From contig JAAFJM010000006.1 of assembly GCA_013298895.1 (NCBI GenBank), positions 1 to 64,000 on the forward strand: a stretch of DNA of 64,000 nucleotides, in the 5' to 3' direction. Positions 178 to 7,795 of this stretch are shown piece by piece. Made by a program: the position numbers and the translations under genes. This stretch comes from Bacteroidota bacterium (GTDB lineage: Bacteria; Bacteroidota; Bacteroidia; UKL13-3). The notes beneath the pieces are model-generated. The model made no database searches, was not told the origin of the DNA, and saw only the letters and a list, made by a program, of their open reading frames with translations. Every line of letters begins with the position of its first letter. Position 1 is the first letter of the stretch.

Positions 178-756
178 ATGCAAAACCTACTATTTAACTT
201 TATATCAAAATACATTACTATAGCAGAAGAGGAGAAAAACGTACTCGTTTCTTTGAACCTATTTCATTCTGTTAAAAAGGGGACTGTTTTATTAAAAGAA
301 GGACAGCATTCTAAAGAAAGTTATTTTGTGCTAAATGGCTGTATTCGTACTTATTATATTTTAGATGGTGAAGAAAAAACCACTGCTTTTTACACAGAAA
401 TGGATGCTTTAACACCTCCTTGTGTAATTAACCAAACTCCTTCTGAATGTTATATTAGTTGTGTGGAAGACTCAATAATTTTGGTTTCTAATGAGGATAT
501 GTCGGAAGAGGTAAATAGTAAATTCCCCAAGTTTGATATCATGTGTAGGAAGTTCTCAGAAGAATTGTTGGCTAAACAACAAATCAATTTTGACGAGTTT
601 AAGACTTCATCACCCGAACAACGATACTTAAACTTACTTAAAAATAGACCTGACCTTATTCAGCGTGTGCCTCAACATCAATTAGCAAGTTTTTTAGGTA
701 TAAAACCACAATCATTAAGCAGACTAAGAGCAAGAATGCTTAAAAAAGAAAGCTAA
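178..756 (+). CDS. Crp/Fnr-family transcriptional regulator
   Basis: This 192-residue protein has the usual length and layout of Bacteroidota Crp/Fnr regulators. A cyclic-nucleotide-binding-like beta roll covers about residues 20-115 (GTVLLKEGQ, SYFVLNGCIRTYY) and a C-terminal helix-turn-helix covers about residues 160-185 (HQLASFLGIKPQSLSRLRAR). There is no Fnr-type N-terminal cysteine cluster, so oxygen sensing through Fe-S is unlikely. The ligand cannot be read from the sequence. The next gene starts 82 bases downstream behind a 14-bp palindrome that recurs before its paralogue, and this regulator is the natural candidate to bind both sites; that is inference. A near-consensus -7 element (TGACTTTG) lies about 35 bases upstream of the ATG. 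Confidence 0.9.
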   Translation: MQNLLFNFISKYITIAEEEKNVLVSLNLFHSVKKGTVLLKEGQHSKESYFVLNGCIRTYYILDGEEKTTAFYTEMDALTPPCVINQTPSECYISCVEDSIILVSNEDMSEEVNSKFPKFDIMCRKFSEELLAKQQINFDEFKTSSPEQRYLNLLKNRPDLIQRVPQHQLASFLGIKPQSLSRLRARMLKKES

Positions 757-766
757 AATTTATTTC

Positions 767-780
767 TTCACTTAAGTGAA
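767..780. promoter_or_regulatory. Perfect 14-bp palindromic operator, copy 1
   Basis: TTCACTTAAGTGAA is a perfect palindrome. It lies exactly 23 bases upstream of the -7 element at 804-811, the same spacing as copy 2 at 1929-1942. With a start site a few bases after the -7 element, its centre falls near -41, the class II activator position of Crp/Fnr proteins. No -33 TTTG is evident, as expected of an activator-dependent promoter. Binding by the adjacent regulator is inferred. Confidence 0.7.
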
Positions 781-803
781 CGAGTTAAGGTAGCTCGCCA
801 ATC

Positions 804-811
804 TACTTTTG
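804..811 (+). promoter_or_regulatory. -7 promoter element of the first paralogue
   Basis: TACTTTTG matches the Bacteroidota consensus TAnnTTTG. It overlaps the alternative TTG start at 809, which therefore cannot be the real translation start. Confidence 0.65.
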
Positions 812-838
812 CAATATCAATTAAAAATGAAAAGAGAT

Positions 839-1456
839 ATGCAAAAAAGGATTTTATTTTATGCCTTAATTATAGTATTGGCAAACAGTTTAAAGGCAAA
901 TGCCCAAGATGCCACAAAAGACACTACTCACAAAAGATGGTTTATTGGTAGTACCTTATTTTTATTGGGTAATTTTGATCAAACAAACAACCCAGAGTTT
1001 ATACAAATAAATGCAGGATACAGAATAACACCTAAAGATGTTGTTCTTTTTAAATTTAAAAGGTCCATTTATTCTTGGCCACTTGGCATCCCATTTGGAC
1101 CTGAATTTGATAAACCAGGACTAAACTATCCCGGACACGCACGCATTCTTGCTCCTCAAATAGGCTATCAGAGATTTTGGTGGAAGGGTGTATTTACATC
1201 CGTTACCGCAATGAATGCCTTTGAAAAATATTTGGATAAGGATAACAAAAAGATTGGAAATGGTTATACCTTATACCTAGACTTTTATTTGGGATACCAA
1301 TTTAAGTTTGGTAAAAAACGCTTCTTTTTCGAACCAGCAATTGGAATTAGTACTTGGCCTATAAGAACTAACGTTCCCGAATCTTTTAAAGCATTAGATG
1401 AAAAATGGAATAACTACTTTATTCAACCAGGGTTTGATTTTGGCATTAACTTTTAG
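839..1456 (+). CDS. Small exported outer-membrane-type protein, paralogue 1
   Basis: The function is not recognised. The mature protein is about 180 residues after a signal peptide ending in KANAQ. It is rich in aromatic residues, has alternating beta-strand patterns (KRWFIGSTLFLLGNF, GYRITPKDVV, FFFEPAIGIS) and ends in FGINF, a C-terminal aromatic typical of outer-membrane beta barrels. It is clearly paralogous to 2001-2624; about two fifths of positions look identical by eye. The ATG at 839 was chosen because it matches the paralogue start and is followed directly by the signal peptide; 827 is the alternative. It is expressed from a palindrome-plus-TACTTTTG promoter directly downstream of the Crp/Fnr gene. 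Confidence 0.75.
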   Translation: MQKRILFYALIIVLANSLKANAQDATKDTTHKRWFIGSTLFLLGNFDQTNNPEFIQINAGYRITPKDVVLFKFKRSIYSWPLGIPFGPEFDKPGLNYPGHARILAPQIGYQRFWWKGVFTSVTAMNAFEKYLDKDNKKIGNGYTLYLDFYLGYQFKFGKKRFFFEPAIGISTWPIRTNVPESFKALDEKWNNYFIQPGFDFGINF

Positions 1457-1507
1457 CATTAAAATCAATAAATAATCAATTTACATAAAACAATAAAAAT
1501 TAATATA

Positions 1508-1879
1508 ATGAAAAAGAAATTCAACTATTCCTTGCTGTTTATGCTAACGGCATTCCTTAGTTCATGTGGCATTGGTGCCGCATTTGTTACCAACCACAAC
1601 CAAAACGCCACAGAGGTACACTTAAGTGGAAACAACTTTAAAGTAATTGATCAGGTAAGTGGAAGTTCAGAAACATCTTATGTGTTTGCAATTGGAGGTA
1701 TGAACAAAAGGCAATTGTACGAAAATGCTTATTCAGCAATGATGAAGAAAGCCAACTTGCTAAATGGTTCAAAAGCCATAATAAACGTAATGACAGAGGA
1801 ACATGTTAGTGGATTTGCTCCTTTCTTTGTTAGAAGAACGATAACTGTGAGTGCCCAAGTAGTAGAATTTACAAGGTAG
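1508..1879 (+). CDS. Small lipoprotein, possibly DUF6567-like
   Basis: The 123-residue protein has a lipoprotein signal peptide with lipobox LSSC and Cys at residue 20, followed by a short conserved domain (NNFKVIDQVSG, YENAYSAMMKKANLLNGSKA, ITVSAQVVEF). The pattern resembles small Bacteroidota lipoproteins of the DUF6567 type; this comes from memory and is only tentative. Function is unknown. It starts 51 bases after paralogue 1, with no separate promoter that I can see, so it probably shares that transcript. Confidence 0.7.
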   Translation: MKKKFNYSLLFMLTAFLSSCGIGAAFVTNHNQNATEVHLSGNNFKVIDQVSGSSETSYVFAIGGMNKRQLYENAYSAMMKKANLLNGSKAIINVMTEEHVSGFAPFFVRRTITVSAQVVEFTR

Positions 1880-1928
1880 TTTTAAATAAATAGGCAACGG
1901 ATTTTAAAAAAGAGATAAAACTTATTTC

Positions 1929-1942
1929 TTCACTTAAGTGAA
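1929..1942. promoter_or_regulatory. Perfect 14-bp palindromic operator, copy 2
   Basis: The same TTCACTTAAGTGAA as at 767-780, again 23 bases upstream of a TACTTTTG -7 element (1966-1973). Identity extends to the left (ATTTCTTCAC) and into the promoter (TCTACTTTTGCAATAT), while the DNA between operator and -7 element differs. That pattern suggests selection on the two sites rather than a very recent duplication. Confidence 0.7.
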
Positions 1943-1965
1943 CGTATCATGATAACTCTCCATTC

Positions 1966-1973
1966 TACTTTTG
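1966..1973 (+). promoter_or_regulatory. -7 promoter element of the second paralogue
   Basis: TACTTTTG fits TAnnTTTG. The predicted start site lies about 25 bases before the ATG at 2001. Confidence 0.65.
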
Positions 1974-2000: not shown

Positions 2001-2624
2001 ATGCAAAAGAAAAATTTATGGATTGGACTTGTTTTAGTTTTAACAATCAATTTACATGTAAATGCTCAACATGCTAAAACAGATAGCACTTACAAACGAT
2101 GGTTCGTTGGTAGTACTTTATTTGTAGTGGGTAATTTAGTACCTGTAAATCCACCAGAATTTGGTCAACTCAATTTAGGTTACCGCATTACAGGAAGGGA
2201 TGTAATCTCTCTTGAGCTAATAACTTGGAAATATGCTTGGCCACTTGGTATTAACCCTTTTTATAATAAGGCATATGGAACACCAGAAGAAAAATTTCCA
2301 GGATATGTAAGAGATTACGGTGTAGGTGTGGCTTACCAAAGGTATTTATGGAAAGGTCTTTATGTAGCAGTGCACATAATGCCAGCTTTGCAAACATATA
2401 CAAATGAAAACGGCAAAAATGTGGGTAATGGTTTCATGATATTCAACACAAACCGAGTTGGTTACCACGTAAAACTCTTTAAGGATAAGTTTTTTATAGA
2501 ACCATCACTTGGTATAGCTGGTCGACCTTATGCTACCGAAATGCCTGATGGATTTAAACAAAAAGATAATAAATGGTCCAAATGGACTCCCGAACCTGGT
2601 CTACATATTGGGTTTAATTTTTAA
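2001..2624 (+). CDS. Small exported outer-membrane-type protein, paralogue 2
   Basis: Paralogue of 839-1456 with the same signal-peptide architecture (ending HVNAQ) and shared blocks: KRWFVGSTLF, GYRITGRDV, AWPLGI, FIEPSLGIAGRP and the terminal HIGFNF. Function is unknown; the strand pattern and C-terminal Phe suggest a small outer-membrane beta barrel. The ATG at 2001 was chosen because the upstream TTG at 1971 falls inside the -7 element. A decayed third copy of this C-terminus is found at about 3761-3862. Confidence 0.75.
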   Translation: MQKKNLWIGLVLVLTINLHVNAQHAKTDSTYKRWFVGSTLFVVGNLVPVNPPEFGQLNLGYRITGRDVISLELITWKYAWPLGINPFYNKAYGTPEEKFPGYVRDYGVGVAYQRYLWKGLYVAVHIMPALQTYTNENGKNVGNGFMIFNTNRVGYHVKLFKDKFFIEPSLGIAGRPYATEMPDGFKQKDNKWSKWTPEPGLHIGFNF

Positions 2625-2774: not shown

Positions 2775-3746
2775 ATGAAAAAAATAAAACTAATAAGCAT
2801 ATTTATATTCATTGCTACCGTAAATATTGTAGCACAAGAAAATGATAGTTTGAAAACAAGCAAAGTTCAAGTAACATTTGCATATCCATTTGGTAGTAAC
2901 GGAACAAGTTCAATGAAATATTCAAATAATTTTTCATTTAATGTATTGTATGGTTTAAATGGCGGTGTAGATGGAGCTGAAATTGGTTCAATATTCAACT
3001 ATAATAAAGGAATTGTCAGAGGATTTCAATTGTCAGGAATTTCAAATATTTGTTTGAAGTCAACACATGGTTTAGTTATATCAGGAGTACTAAATTATTC
3101 TAAGCAAAGCGCAAAAGGATTTCAATTATCAACTGTAAACGTTTGTGATAATGAGTTTAGCGGTTTGCAATTAGGTGTTGTAAATTATTCAAAGAAACTT
3201 AAAGGCGTTCAAGTTGGTTTATTTAACTACATAAATAATGGTAACAATGCTTTGCCAATTGGATTATTCAGCATAGTGAAAAATGGTTATTATGAATTGG
3301 AACTTGCTGGAGGTGATGCAATAAACTATAACCTGAACTTTAAAATGGGAGTTGAAAAGTTTTACACTATTTTTAAAACTGGCTACTCTACATTTAAAAA
3401 CAATGCTATTTATAGTGTGGGTCTTGGATTTGGCAGTAAAATACCGATTTCTGAGAAACAAAAAATCAGCATTGATTTATCGTACAATCAAATTGTTTAC
3501 AATAACTATTGGGACAACGGAAAAATTAATATCCTAAACAAGGCTGATTTTAATTATAAATATAGCTTTTCAAATAAATTTTCTGTGTTGATAGGTACAT
3601 CATTTAACATTTACATTACAGAAGAGAAGGTAGAAGGTAAATACGGAACTTTAAATATTCCTAATACTATTTATTCAAACGAAAGAATGAATAGTAAGTT
3701 GTTTATGTGGTTTGGAATTAATGCAGGTTTGTCTTTAAAACTATAA
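2775..3746 (+). CDS. LA_2272-type surface repeat protein
   Basis: The 323-residue exported protein has a signal peptide ending IVAQ. Its centre carries tandem short repeats of the form GxQLG-VVNYSK / GVQVGLFNY (about residues 75-165), the pattern of LA_2272-type surface repeat proteins. The C-terminal half looks like amphipathic beta strands (FSVLIGTSFNIYI, MWFGINAGLSLKL), consistent with an outer-membrane location. The biochemical function is unknown. It follows paralogue 2 after a 150-base gap and may have its own promoter. Confidence 0.7.
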   Translation: MKKIKLISIFIFIATVNIVAQENDSLKTSKVQVTFAYPFGSNGTSSMKYSNNFSFNVLYGLNGGVDGAEIGSIFNYNKGIVRGFQLSGISNICLKSTHGLVISGVLNYSKQSAKGFQLSTVNVCDNEFSGLQLGVVNYSKKLKGVQVGLFNYINNGNNALPIGLFSIVKNGYYELELAGGDAINYNLNFKMGVEKFYTIFKTGYSTFKNNAIYSVGLGFGSKIPISEKQKISIDLSYNQIVYNNYWDNGKINILNKADFNYKYSFSNKFSVLIGTSFNIYITEEKVEGKYGTLNIPNTIYSNERMNSKLFMWFGINAGLSLKL

Positions 3747-3863: not shown

Positions 3864-4295
3864 ATGGATACACAAAAAACACCACAAAATGAACTGAAAG
3901 ACATTAAAGTAGATTTGAAACTAAAACTCGCTGCACTGTGGGCTAGTTTTATGTTTCTCTATGTCTATGTTGATTATTTTCACTTATATATGCCAGGATC
4001 CATAGAAGAAATTCTCGCGGGAAATGTATTTATTTTTGACATTTCTTACGTCTTTTTATTGCTAGCAATGACCTTTGTAATAATTCCAACCCTTATGATT
4101 TTCCTTTCTGTTGCACTTCCTGCTAAAGTAAATCGTTTGATGAACATAATTGTAGCTATTCTTTATATTCCATATATGCTGTTTAATTTGGCAGGAGAAG
4201 CTTGGGCACACATGTATTTTGCAGCGGCTGTAGAAGTGTTACTACTTTGTCTAATTATTCGTTATGCATGGAAGTGGTCTTGTATTGAAGCATAA
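3864..4295 (+). CDS. DUF6326-like four-helix membrane protein
   Basis: The 143-residue protein has a short charged N-terminus and four predicted membrane segments, at about residues 23-42, 55-80, 88-108 and 112-135. The first carries ALWASFMFLYVYVDYFHLY, the block I associate with DUF6326 proteins; that family call is from memory. Function is unknown. The start overlaps the end of the decayed paralogue copy and lies in another frame. It is probably the last gene of the left-end module. Confidence 0.7.
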   Translation: MDTQKTPQNELKDIKVDLKLKLAALWASFMFLYVYVDYFHLYMPGSIEEILAGNVFIFDISYVFLLLAMTFVIIPTLMIFLSVALPAKVNRLMNIIVAILYIPYMLFNLAGEAWAHMYFAAAVEVLLLCLIIRYAWKWSCIEA

Positions 4296-5422: not shown

Positions 5423-7795
5423 ATGATCAAATATTATTCAATTACTTTTATACTTTTTCTTGTTTTTAGTACCGCATTTACCCAAACTAAATTTACTATG
5501 AGTGGTGAGCTTAGAGATAGTTCTAATGGCGAAACATTAATTGGTGCAGTAGTAAAAATTATTGAAACCAATAAAGCTATTTCAACCAATACATATGGCT
5601 ATTTTGCATTAACACTACCTTCTGGAAATTATACTGTTCAAATAACTTATTTGGGTTTTCAAACCAAGATTTTAAAGGTTAATTTAGATAAAGATACCAA
5701 ATTAAATGTAAAACTTAGCCAAAAGAGTATTACAGGAAAAGAAGTGGTAATAAAAGGTGAACGCGAAGATAAAAACGTAAAAAGTACCGAAATGAGTACG
5801 GTGGAATTATCGGGCGAAAAAGTAAAGCAATTACCCGTAATATTTGGAGAACCTGACATTTTAAAAGCCATTACTTTACTACCAGGTATAAAAAGTGGTG
5901 GTGAAGGCGGAACAGGATTTTATGTGAGAGGTGGCGGACCCGACCAAAATTTAATATTAATGGATGAAGCTGTAGTTTATAATCCATCGCATTTATTTGG
6001 TTTCCTTTCTGTTTTCAACACAGATGCAGTTAAAAATTTAGAGGTTATTAAAGGCGGTATGCCAGCAAATTATGGCGGGCGTTTATCATCAATTTTAAAT
6101 GTTAGCATGCGCGAAGGCAATAACCAAAAATATGAGTTTAATGGTGGCATTGGTTTAATAGCCTCACGTTTTAGTGCAGAAGGACCGATGAAAAAAGGAA
6201 AAAGCAGTTTTTTAATTGCTGCACGTAGAACGTATATTGATGTTTTAGCGCAACCTTTTTTGCCTAAAAGTGCACAAGGAAATGCTTATTATTTTTATGA
6301 TATAAATTTAAAGTTAAATTGGCAATTAGGACCAAAAGATAAGTTATACTTTTCGGGATATTTTGGAAGGGATATATTAGATTTTATAAGTCCAACTAAT
6401 AAAAGTGTAAACCTTAATTTTGGTTGGGGAAATGCTACAGCTACATTACGTTGGAACCATATATTCAAACCTAAATTGTTTAGCAATACTTCATTAATTT
6501 ATAACCGTTACGATTTATTTAACGATTTTAAATTTGGTGCAAGTGGTTTTAGTGTGCGTTCAGGTTTGTATGATTGGAATTTAAAGTCAGATTTTATCTG
6601 GTTTGCAGCTGATAAACATTTGGTTAAATTTGGTTTCAATTATATTTTCCATACGTTTACTCCAGGTATTGCCAGTGGTGCTTTAGGTACCATAAAAATT
6701 GATGAAGAAATTAGTAAACAATATGCGCATGAGTTTGCAATATACGCCCAAGATGAATGGCAAATAAGCCAACGTTGGAGTGTAAATGCGGGTTTAAGAG
6801 CCGTGGCTTTTAATAGAGTTGGTCCTTACACGCAAGAAATATTTGACAATAACAATCAAAAAACAGGAGAATCTATAAAATACGGTGCCAATGAAAGTAT
6901 TGCGTTTTATCCTAGATTAGAACCAAGGTTAAATGTTAATTATTTGATTAATGAAGAATCTTCTATAAAAGCTTCTTATACCAAAACATATCAATTTGTA
7001 CATTTAGCTACTACAAGTGGTGCTCAGTTTCCTGTAGATTTATGGGTGCCTAGTTCAGCTAAAGTTAAACCTCAAGAGGCCAATCAAGTGGCTTTGGGTT
7101 ATTTTAGAAATTTTAAAAATAACAGATACGAAGCTAGTGCCGAGGCTTATTATAAAGTAATGGATAACCAAATTGAGTTTAAGCCATTTTCACAATTGTT
7201 TTTCAATGCTAATTTAGAAAACGAGATGGTTTTTGGACAAGGAAAAGCTTATGGTTTAGAATTGTTTTTAAAGAAAAAAGTGGGTAGGCTAAATGGATGG
7301 ATTGGGTACACTTGGAGTCGTGCATACCGCCAGTTTGATCAATTAAACAATGGAGAAGCTTATTTTTTCAGGTATGATAGAACGCACGATATGTCGTTGG
7401 TGTTAAGTTATACTTTTAATAAAAAATGGACAGGAACTTTTGTGTTTGTATATGGAACAGGCAATGCTGTTACTTTACCAAACTCTCGTTATCCATACAG
7501 AATTGGTTATGACCCACAAACAAACGAACCTAAATTCACTTTTATTGACGTTTATGATAAAATAAATTCATATCGGTTACCGTCCTACCATCGTGCAGAT
7601 TTAAGTTTTGTATATACCCATAAAAAAACTAAAAACTGGGAAAGCAATTGGAATTTTAGTATTTACAATATTTACAACCGTGCTAATCCATATTTTATCT
7701 ATTTTTTACCTGATTTAGATAAGTTAGAAGTAAAAGCTTACATGGTTTATTTATTCCCCATTTTACCTTCGGTAGCTTGGAATTTTAAGTTTTAA
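5423..7795 (+). CDS. TonB-dependent receptor with CarboxypepD-like N-terminal domain
   Basis: The 790-residue outer-membrane receptor has a signal peptide, a carboxypeptidase regulatory-like domain (about residues 25-100, with LIGAVVKI and VQITYLGFQTK), a plug domain (about 125-230, with GEPDILKAITLLPGIKSG and FYVRGGGPDQNLILMDE) and a beta barrel to the C-terminus ending in Phe. It imports an unknown substrate using TonB energy. The DUF4249 lipoprotein gene begins 12 bases after its stop, a pairing common in Bacteroidota that resembles SusC/SusD logic. No degradative enzymes lie nearby to hint at the substrate. Confidence 0.9.
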   Translation: MIKYYSITFILFLVFSTAFTQTKFTMSGELRDSSNGETLIGAVVKIIETNKAISTNTYGYFALTLPSGNYTVQITYLGFQTKILKVNLDKDTKLNVKLSQKSITGKEVVIKGEREDKNVKSTEMSTVELSGEKVKQLPVIFGEPDILKAITLLPGIKSGGEGGTGFYVRGGGPDQNLILMDEAVVYNPSHLFGFLSVFNTDAVKNLEVIKGGMPANYGGRLSSILNVSMREGNNQKYEFNGGIGLIASRFSAEGPMKKGKSSFLIAARRTYIDVLAQPFLPKSAQGNAYYFYDINLKLNWQLGPKDKLYFSGYFGRDILDFISPTNKSVNLNFGWGNATATLRWNHIFKPKLFSNTSLIYNRYDLFNDFKFGASGFSVRSGLYDWNLKSDFIWFAADKHLVKFGFNYIFHTFTPGIASGALGTIKIDEEISKQYAHEFAIYAQDEWQISQRWSVNAGLRAVAFNRVGPYTQEIFDNNNQKTGESIKYGANESIAFYPRLEPRLNVNYLINEESSIKASYTKTYQFVHLATTSGAQFPVDLWVPSSAKVKPQEANQVALGYFRNFKNNRYEASAEAYYKVMDNQIEFKPFSQLFFNANLENEMVFGQGKAYGLELFLKKKVGRLNGWIGYTWSRAYRQFDQLNNGEAYFFRYDRTHDMSLVLSYTFNKKWTGTFVFVYGTGNAVTLPNSRYPYRIGYDPQTNEPKFTFIDVYDKINSYRLPSYHRADLSFVYTHKKTKNWESNWNFSIYNIYNRANPYFIYFLPDLDKLEVKAYMVYLFPILPSVAWNFKF

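Follow-up and report, generated by a model that had tools for sequence, protein, structure and literature searches.

Two genes for predicted outer-membrane beta-barrel proteins, here called ompA and ompB, are each preceded by the same 14-bp palindrome, and a gene of the Crp/Fnr family stands directly upstream of the first copy (Table 1). The question raised by this locus is what the two palindromes do and whether the product of the neighbouring gene reads them. The first-pass annotation of the window (the whole stretch of 64,000 nucleotides that was analysed) had pointed out the two identical palindromes, each 23 bp before TACTTTTG; both are exact and the distance is correct in both cases. The genes behind them, described there as paralogous, encode proteins with approximately 42% identity.

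Table 1. Features of the regulator-omp locus (positions in the window)
Feature	Position	Strand	Remarks
Crp/Fnr-family regulator gene	178..756	+	192 aa; recognition helix KPQSLSRLRAR; assignment from PF00027, 3dn7 and orthologues
Putative operator 1	767..780	.	TTCACTTAAGTGAA; 10 nt past the regulator stop codon
Putative ompA -7 box	804..811	+	TACTTTTG; 23 bp from operator 1; predicted start 816
ompA, predicted outer-membrane beta-barrel	839..1456	+	orthologues favour ATG 839; ATG 827 possible too
DUF6567 lipoprotein gene	1508..1879	+	PF20205, 175 bits; co-transcription with ompA likely
Putative operator 2	1929..1942	.	TTCACTTAAGTGAA; before ompB
Putative ompB -7 box	1966..1973	+	TACTTTTG; 23 bp from operator 2; predicted start 1978
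ompB, predicted outer-membrane beta-barrel, ompA paralogue	2001..2624	+	AlphaFold pLDDT 82.5; small-barrel fold matches
DUF6326 membrane protein gene	3864..4295	+	PF19851, 36.3 bits; often accompanies ompB in relatives

A search of the whole 3.6-Mb genome for TTCACTTAAGTGAA returned only these two local copies, where a first-order Markov model predicts about 0.04. Two copies with one mismatch were present elsewhere, both within long ORFs. With only two sites in this genome, a genome-wide regulon is rejected.

The regulator was scanned against 85,000 species genomes, which yielded 80 orthologous loci (74-98% regulator identity) from genera including Runella, Spirosoma, Larkinella, Dyadobacter, Emticicia, Lacibacter, Chitinophaga and Flavobacterium. 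A site with at most two mismatches from TTAACTTAAGTGAA was located within about 120 nt of the regulator stop codon in 79 of the 80 loci, most commonly 10 nt past it, and the match was exact in 61 of these 79; in the single exception, L091, the sites lie further downstream. Among 110 well-matched sites, 99 had a recognisable -7 box, 96 of them at a distance of 23 bp and 3 at 22 bp; the remaining 11 had none, and in no case did a box stand at a different spacing within 48 nt. An ompA/ompB homologue follows 114 of 118 promoter-type sites. The sequence logo built from 123 sites reads cATTTC-TTAACTTAAGTGAA-CGA, followed by a variable stretch and CCAATCTACTTTTGCA. Since the general consensus, TTAAC-TTAA-GTGAA, is asymmetric, the perfect palindrome of the window represents a variant, specific to its lineage, of an operator with slight asymmetry. 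The search of related genomes for the palindrome near TAnnTTTG, which the first-pass annotation had proposed, therefore shows that site and distance are kept in orthologous modules. The palindrome is a conserved site at which the regulator encoded just upstream most likely binds, and this pairing has been retained across the Bacteroidota with a constant distance to the promoter.

The gene at 178-756 encodes a short regulator of Crp/Fnr type. Its N-terminal part is a cNMP-binding-type beta-roll domain (PF00027, 36.3 bits, cut-off 27.5) and its closest solved sequence is PDB 3dn7 (E=3e-22, full-length alignment), a cyclic-nucleotide-binding-type regulator which has the same short architecture but the helix PEYLSEIR instead of PQSLSRLR. 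The C-terminal domain scored 15.7 bits with HTH_Crp_2 (PF13545), below the curated cut-off of 27; in the alignment with 3dn7, the recognition helix PQSLSRLR falls on the HTH of that protein. An AlphaFold model of the regulator reached a pLDDT of only 55 and was left unused. Three cysteines (Cys55, Cys82 and Cys123) are conserved in the alignment, and one might speculate that they serve sensing; the alignment contains no FNR-type N-terminal Cys cluster for a [4Fe-4S] centre. At the position of the cAMP-binding cassette (G-E-L ... R-S) the inspected alignment reads TEMEALTPPCVINKTPSEYY and lacks an R-S/T pair, and cAMP is probably not the ligand, if the protein binds one. Autoregulation of the regulator gene was considered and dropped, because no similar site occurs within 300 nt upstream in the eight orthologues checked, nor in the window, where 177 nt precede the gene.

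The half-site order (TCAC, then GTGA) had been interpreted as a reversed E. coli CRP site. This did not hold: TTCAC-N4-GTGAA is an FNR-type 5-4-5 palindrome in which the third half-site base is altered. The 14-bp palindrome, the class II position and the helix pattern with its S-R pair are shared with FNR of E. coli. Unlike FNR proper, which reads TTGAT-N4-ATCAA, the present regulator has TTAAC/TTCAC-N4-GTGAA as its putative site, with A or C rather than G as the third base, Gln in place of Glu209, no N-terminal Cys cluster, and a pair of local sites where FNR has a global regulon. CRP of E. coli belongs to the same superfamily and uses the same recognition-helix position, its base contacts being made by Arg180, Glu181 and Arg185 (PMC12531629). 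However, its site (TGTGA-N6-TCACA) differs in half-site and geometry, and the present regulator has Pro-Gln for Arg-Glu, no cAMP-binding motif recognisable by inspection, and a local regulon.

How might such an operator act? Flavobacterial TAnnTTTG boxes sit at -12 to -5 (PMC9723704), which places the predicted starts at 816 and 1978 and the operator centre at -42.5, over the position where a -33 box would be expected. The consensus of the operator promoters, in the logo of 123 sites, contains no such box (TTTG). A dimer at such a position is the standard class II arrangement, in which the centre lies near -41.5 and the upstream box is replaced; the class II placement suggested in the first-pass annotation is thus supported, counted from a predicted start. 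The 178-756 protein is probably a dedicated local activator of class II, acting on operators of its neighbour genes. The regulator dimer would bind the 14-bp site of FNR geometry (two 5-bp half-sites and a 4-bp centre) at two places, one directly behind its own gene and one before ompB. In CRP and FNR a Glu reads the third half-site base; because Gln (Gln178) replaces it, the site read would be TTAAC/TTCAC and not TTGAT/TTGAC. As the operator overlaps the would-be -33 box, the bound dimer would bring in RNA polymerase at a promoter with a -7 box and no -33 box, and the targets would be the two paralogous barrel proteins together with the small genes behind them.

Activation is inferred from the position of the operator centre and the missing -33 box, and repression by the same regulator is the main rival. 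In that case a dimer over the -33 region would block RNA polymerase until a ligand releases it, which would suit the overlap of the operator with the upstream promoter region and the fact that many local regulators are repressors. Blocking, however, tolerates many positions, whereas the one helical phase and distance found in 99 of 99 measurable sites suits contact with the polymerase, and a consensus lacking a -33 box suggests a promoter that needs help. We regard repression as unlikely.

The association of site and regulator was examined in an even set of 395 genomes of the class, 19 with a close regulator orthologue and 376 without. The combined pattern of site and promoter was present in 15 of the 19 and in only 2 of the 376 (Fisher p=1e-21), and each of the 15 genomes had at least one match in the neighbourhood of the regulator. 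In the four regulator-bearing genomes without a match the site or promoter behind the gene was degenerate or altered: altered sites were found in G142 (TTAACTTAAGTGCT), G170 (TTAACTTAAGTCAA) and G351 (TTAACCAGAGTCAA), while G352 has TTCACTTAAGTGAA behind the regulator and an altered -7 box. In G029 (L043, 7400-8100) the regulator orthologue is broken, apparently by a frameshift, and neither omp genes nor an operator were detected near it, so that the module has apparently decayed jointly.

Diverged relatives of the regulator offer a further view. In 100 Crp/Fnr paralogues of less than 45% identity we looked for TT-N10-AA with matching halves, a -7 box 21-24 bp away and a location between -30 and +150 of the regulator's own stop codon. 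Such a site stands behind the own stop codon in 21 of the 100, compared with 0-2 in control windows. In a second set, fetched later, it was found for 12 of 61 paralogues. Of the five control windows for this set, four gave 0 of 61 and the divergent one gave 4 of 61, among which one case, L249 (TTGATCCATATCAA, Glu-type helix), looks real. Since approximately 80% of the paralogues have no such site under the strict pattern, the layout is common rather than universal.

Across these paralogues and the orthologues the half-site tracks the residue equivalent to Glu181 of CRP. Glu (P-E-T-L-S-R) goes with TTGAC or TTGAT, Gln with TTAAC or TTCAC, Pro and Gly with TTAAC and in places TTCAC, Val with TTATC (four of five cases), and Ser/Thr with TTGCC. 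For LSR-helix regulators of both sets, a restriction chosen after the exceptions in the second set had been seen, a GA-type half accompanies Glu in 18 of 18 cases and other residues in 1 of 14 (p=4e-8, or p=5e-6 when three exceptional Glu orthologues are added, both uncorrected for shared ancestry). The second set, which contains a single non-Glu regulator carrying a site, gave p=0.33 for Glu versus non-Glu and is underpowered, so that most of the weight for the association of helix and half-site falls on the first set and on the combined table. The exceptional orthologues (L114, L132 and L135, with KPESLSRLRAR) keep TTAAC..GTGAA, which means that this residue alone does not fix the site. They rule out a simple Glu/Gln switch; the code holds across diverged paralogues. 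Three more Glu regulators, from the second set, break the rule; in two of them the LSR arginine is missing, and the site of the third looks like a chance match.

Genome G074 contains two paralogous regulator-omp modules, one with a Gln-type regulator on TTAACTTAAGTGAA and one with a Val-type regulator on TTATCTTAAGATAA; the halves are TTATC-TTAA-GATAA for the Val type and TTAAC-TTAA-GTGAA for its Gln-type sister. When 40 genomes of this genus were searched, TTATCTTAAGATAA together with its promoter was present once, behind the Val-type gene, and no second Val-type pair (PVS with TTATC) turned up. Three other Val paralogues likewise have a TTATC half.

It could be argued that another transcription factor binds the palindrome and that the Crp/Fnr gene is a long-standing neighbour and nothing more, since linkage alone cannot separate a neighbour from the protein that binds. 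We consider this highly improbable: the site is missing from nearly all genomes without the regulator, it changes with the recognition helix among paralogues of the same layout, and the two sites of G074 each fit their own neighbour. The tie to the 178-756 gene proposed in the first-pass annotation is supported, at the level of sequence, by linkage, co-occurrence and this covariation. There is still less to recommend an action as RNA, for example as terminator of the regulator gene or leader hairpin. The element lies directly behind the regulator stop codon and could pair with itself, but no T run follows it, it stands upstream of a promoter box at a fixed distance, and it recurs before ompB away from the regulator gene. 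Finally, the sites had been thought selected because the DNA between them differs; selection is borne out by conservation in relatives, whereas the spacers are not unrelated, 15 of the 23 positions being identical in the two copies. This likeness beyond the palindrome would, in the window alone, leave room for the view that promoter and gene were recently duplicated in tandem and that the sites are relics without function, a reading refuted by the retention of the site in 79 of 80 loci from many genera while the spacer varies, and to which we attach practically no weight.

With its local operators the regulator resembles HcpR and HcpR2, which have narrow regulons beside the regulator gene, in Bacteroides too (PMC1274295). 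For HcpR, HcpR2, DNR and NnrR, Rodionov et al. (2005, PMC1274295) reported a correlation between the DNA motif and the residues at 180 and 181: Glu-type HcpR reads TTGAC-N4-GTCAA, Pro181 HcpR2 reads GTAAC-N4-GTTAC, and Ser and Gln variants have altered motifs. The residue-base principle has thus been known since 2005. Our data agree with that study for Glu (TTGAC) and Pro (here TTAAC) and extend its table by Val, Gly and Thr classes. Unlike HcpR and HcpR2, the present regulators have outer-membrane barrel, DUF6567 and DUF6326 genes rather than hcp as neighbours and putative targets, and their operator follows immediately after the stop codon of the regulator gene itself. The module, this layout and the extended residue table appear to be new; in the literature searched, which excluded most subscription journals, we found neither the module and layout nor Gln, Val, Gly and Thr classes in this form, and nothing relevant on the motif or such a system.

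It is common for a Bacteroidota genome to encode five to ten such regulators, or more, and no targets or sites of theirs were described in the literature searched. We lean towards a rule for the phylum, by which many short Crp/Fnr regulators would be activators of a single neighbour, with the operator behind their own stop codon, 22-23 bp before TAnnTTTG. Their specificities would be readable from genomes and predictable from the helix (Glu, TTGAC/TTGAT; Gln, TTAAC/TTCAC; Pro or Gly, TTAAC; Val, TTATC; Ser/Thr, TTGCC). The fixed layout would then provide an experiment-free training set of regulator-site pairs and extend the CRP/FNR code past Glu181 to natural variants with Gln, Val, Pro, Gly, Ser or Thr, some of them paralogues of one genome with different sites. 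It also makes promoters available on which class II activation can be tested, in a phylum whose -7 box is unusual, and points to the likely targets of the regulator, a paired family of outer-membrane barrels.

Neither ompA nor ompB had a Pfam or NCBIfam match above threshold. AlphaFold predicts a small beta-barrel for ompB; among solved folds it comes closest to small outer-membrane barrels such as CarO, OmpA and OprF, with TM-scores of only about 0.4. Identity of the barrel as a lipid A deacylase (PagL) was rejected, the matches being weak and under the cut-off. The DUF6567 lipoprotein gene and the DUF6326 membrane-protein gene are frequent companions of the module in relatives. An ORF between ompB and the DUF6326 gene (2775-3746) matches the NCBIfam LA_2272 surface-repeat model above cut-off.

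Some minor observations concern the sites themselves. An imperfect inverted repeat, CGAG..CTCG, is common in the spacer between operator and -7 box (window 781-803; L039 6914-6936); it is perfect in G003, and its covariation over 123 sites is weak. A second palindrome in the spacer (CGAGTTAT-G-ATAACTCG in G003) was rejected, as it is not conserved and the covariation z is only about 2-3. The Glu-type paralogues L234 and L253, which lack the LSR arginine, have other downstream sites (TTAAGATACTTTAA and TTAAACTATCTTAA) and perhaps represent a further recognition class. In L120 (CP034120.1), a complete genome deposited under the name of the gammaproteobacterium Glaciecola amylolytica, the region around 6000-7200 contains a regulator of 76% identity and, ahead of a DUF6326 gene, a TTAACTTAAGTGAA site, reflecting either horizontal transfer or a mislabelled assembly.
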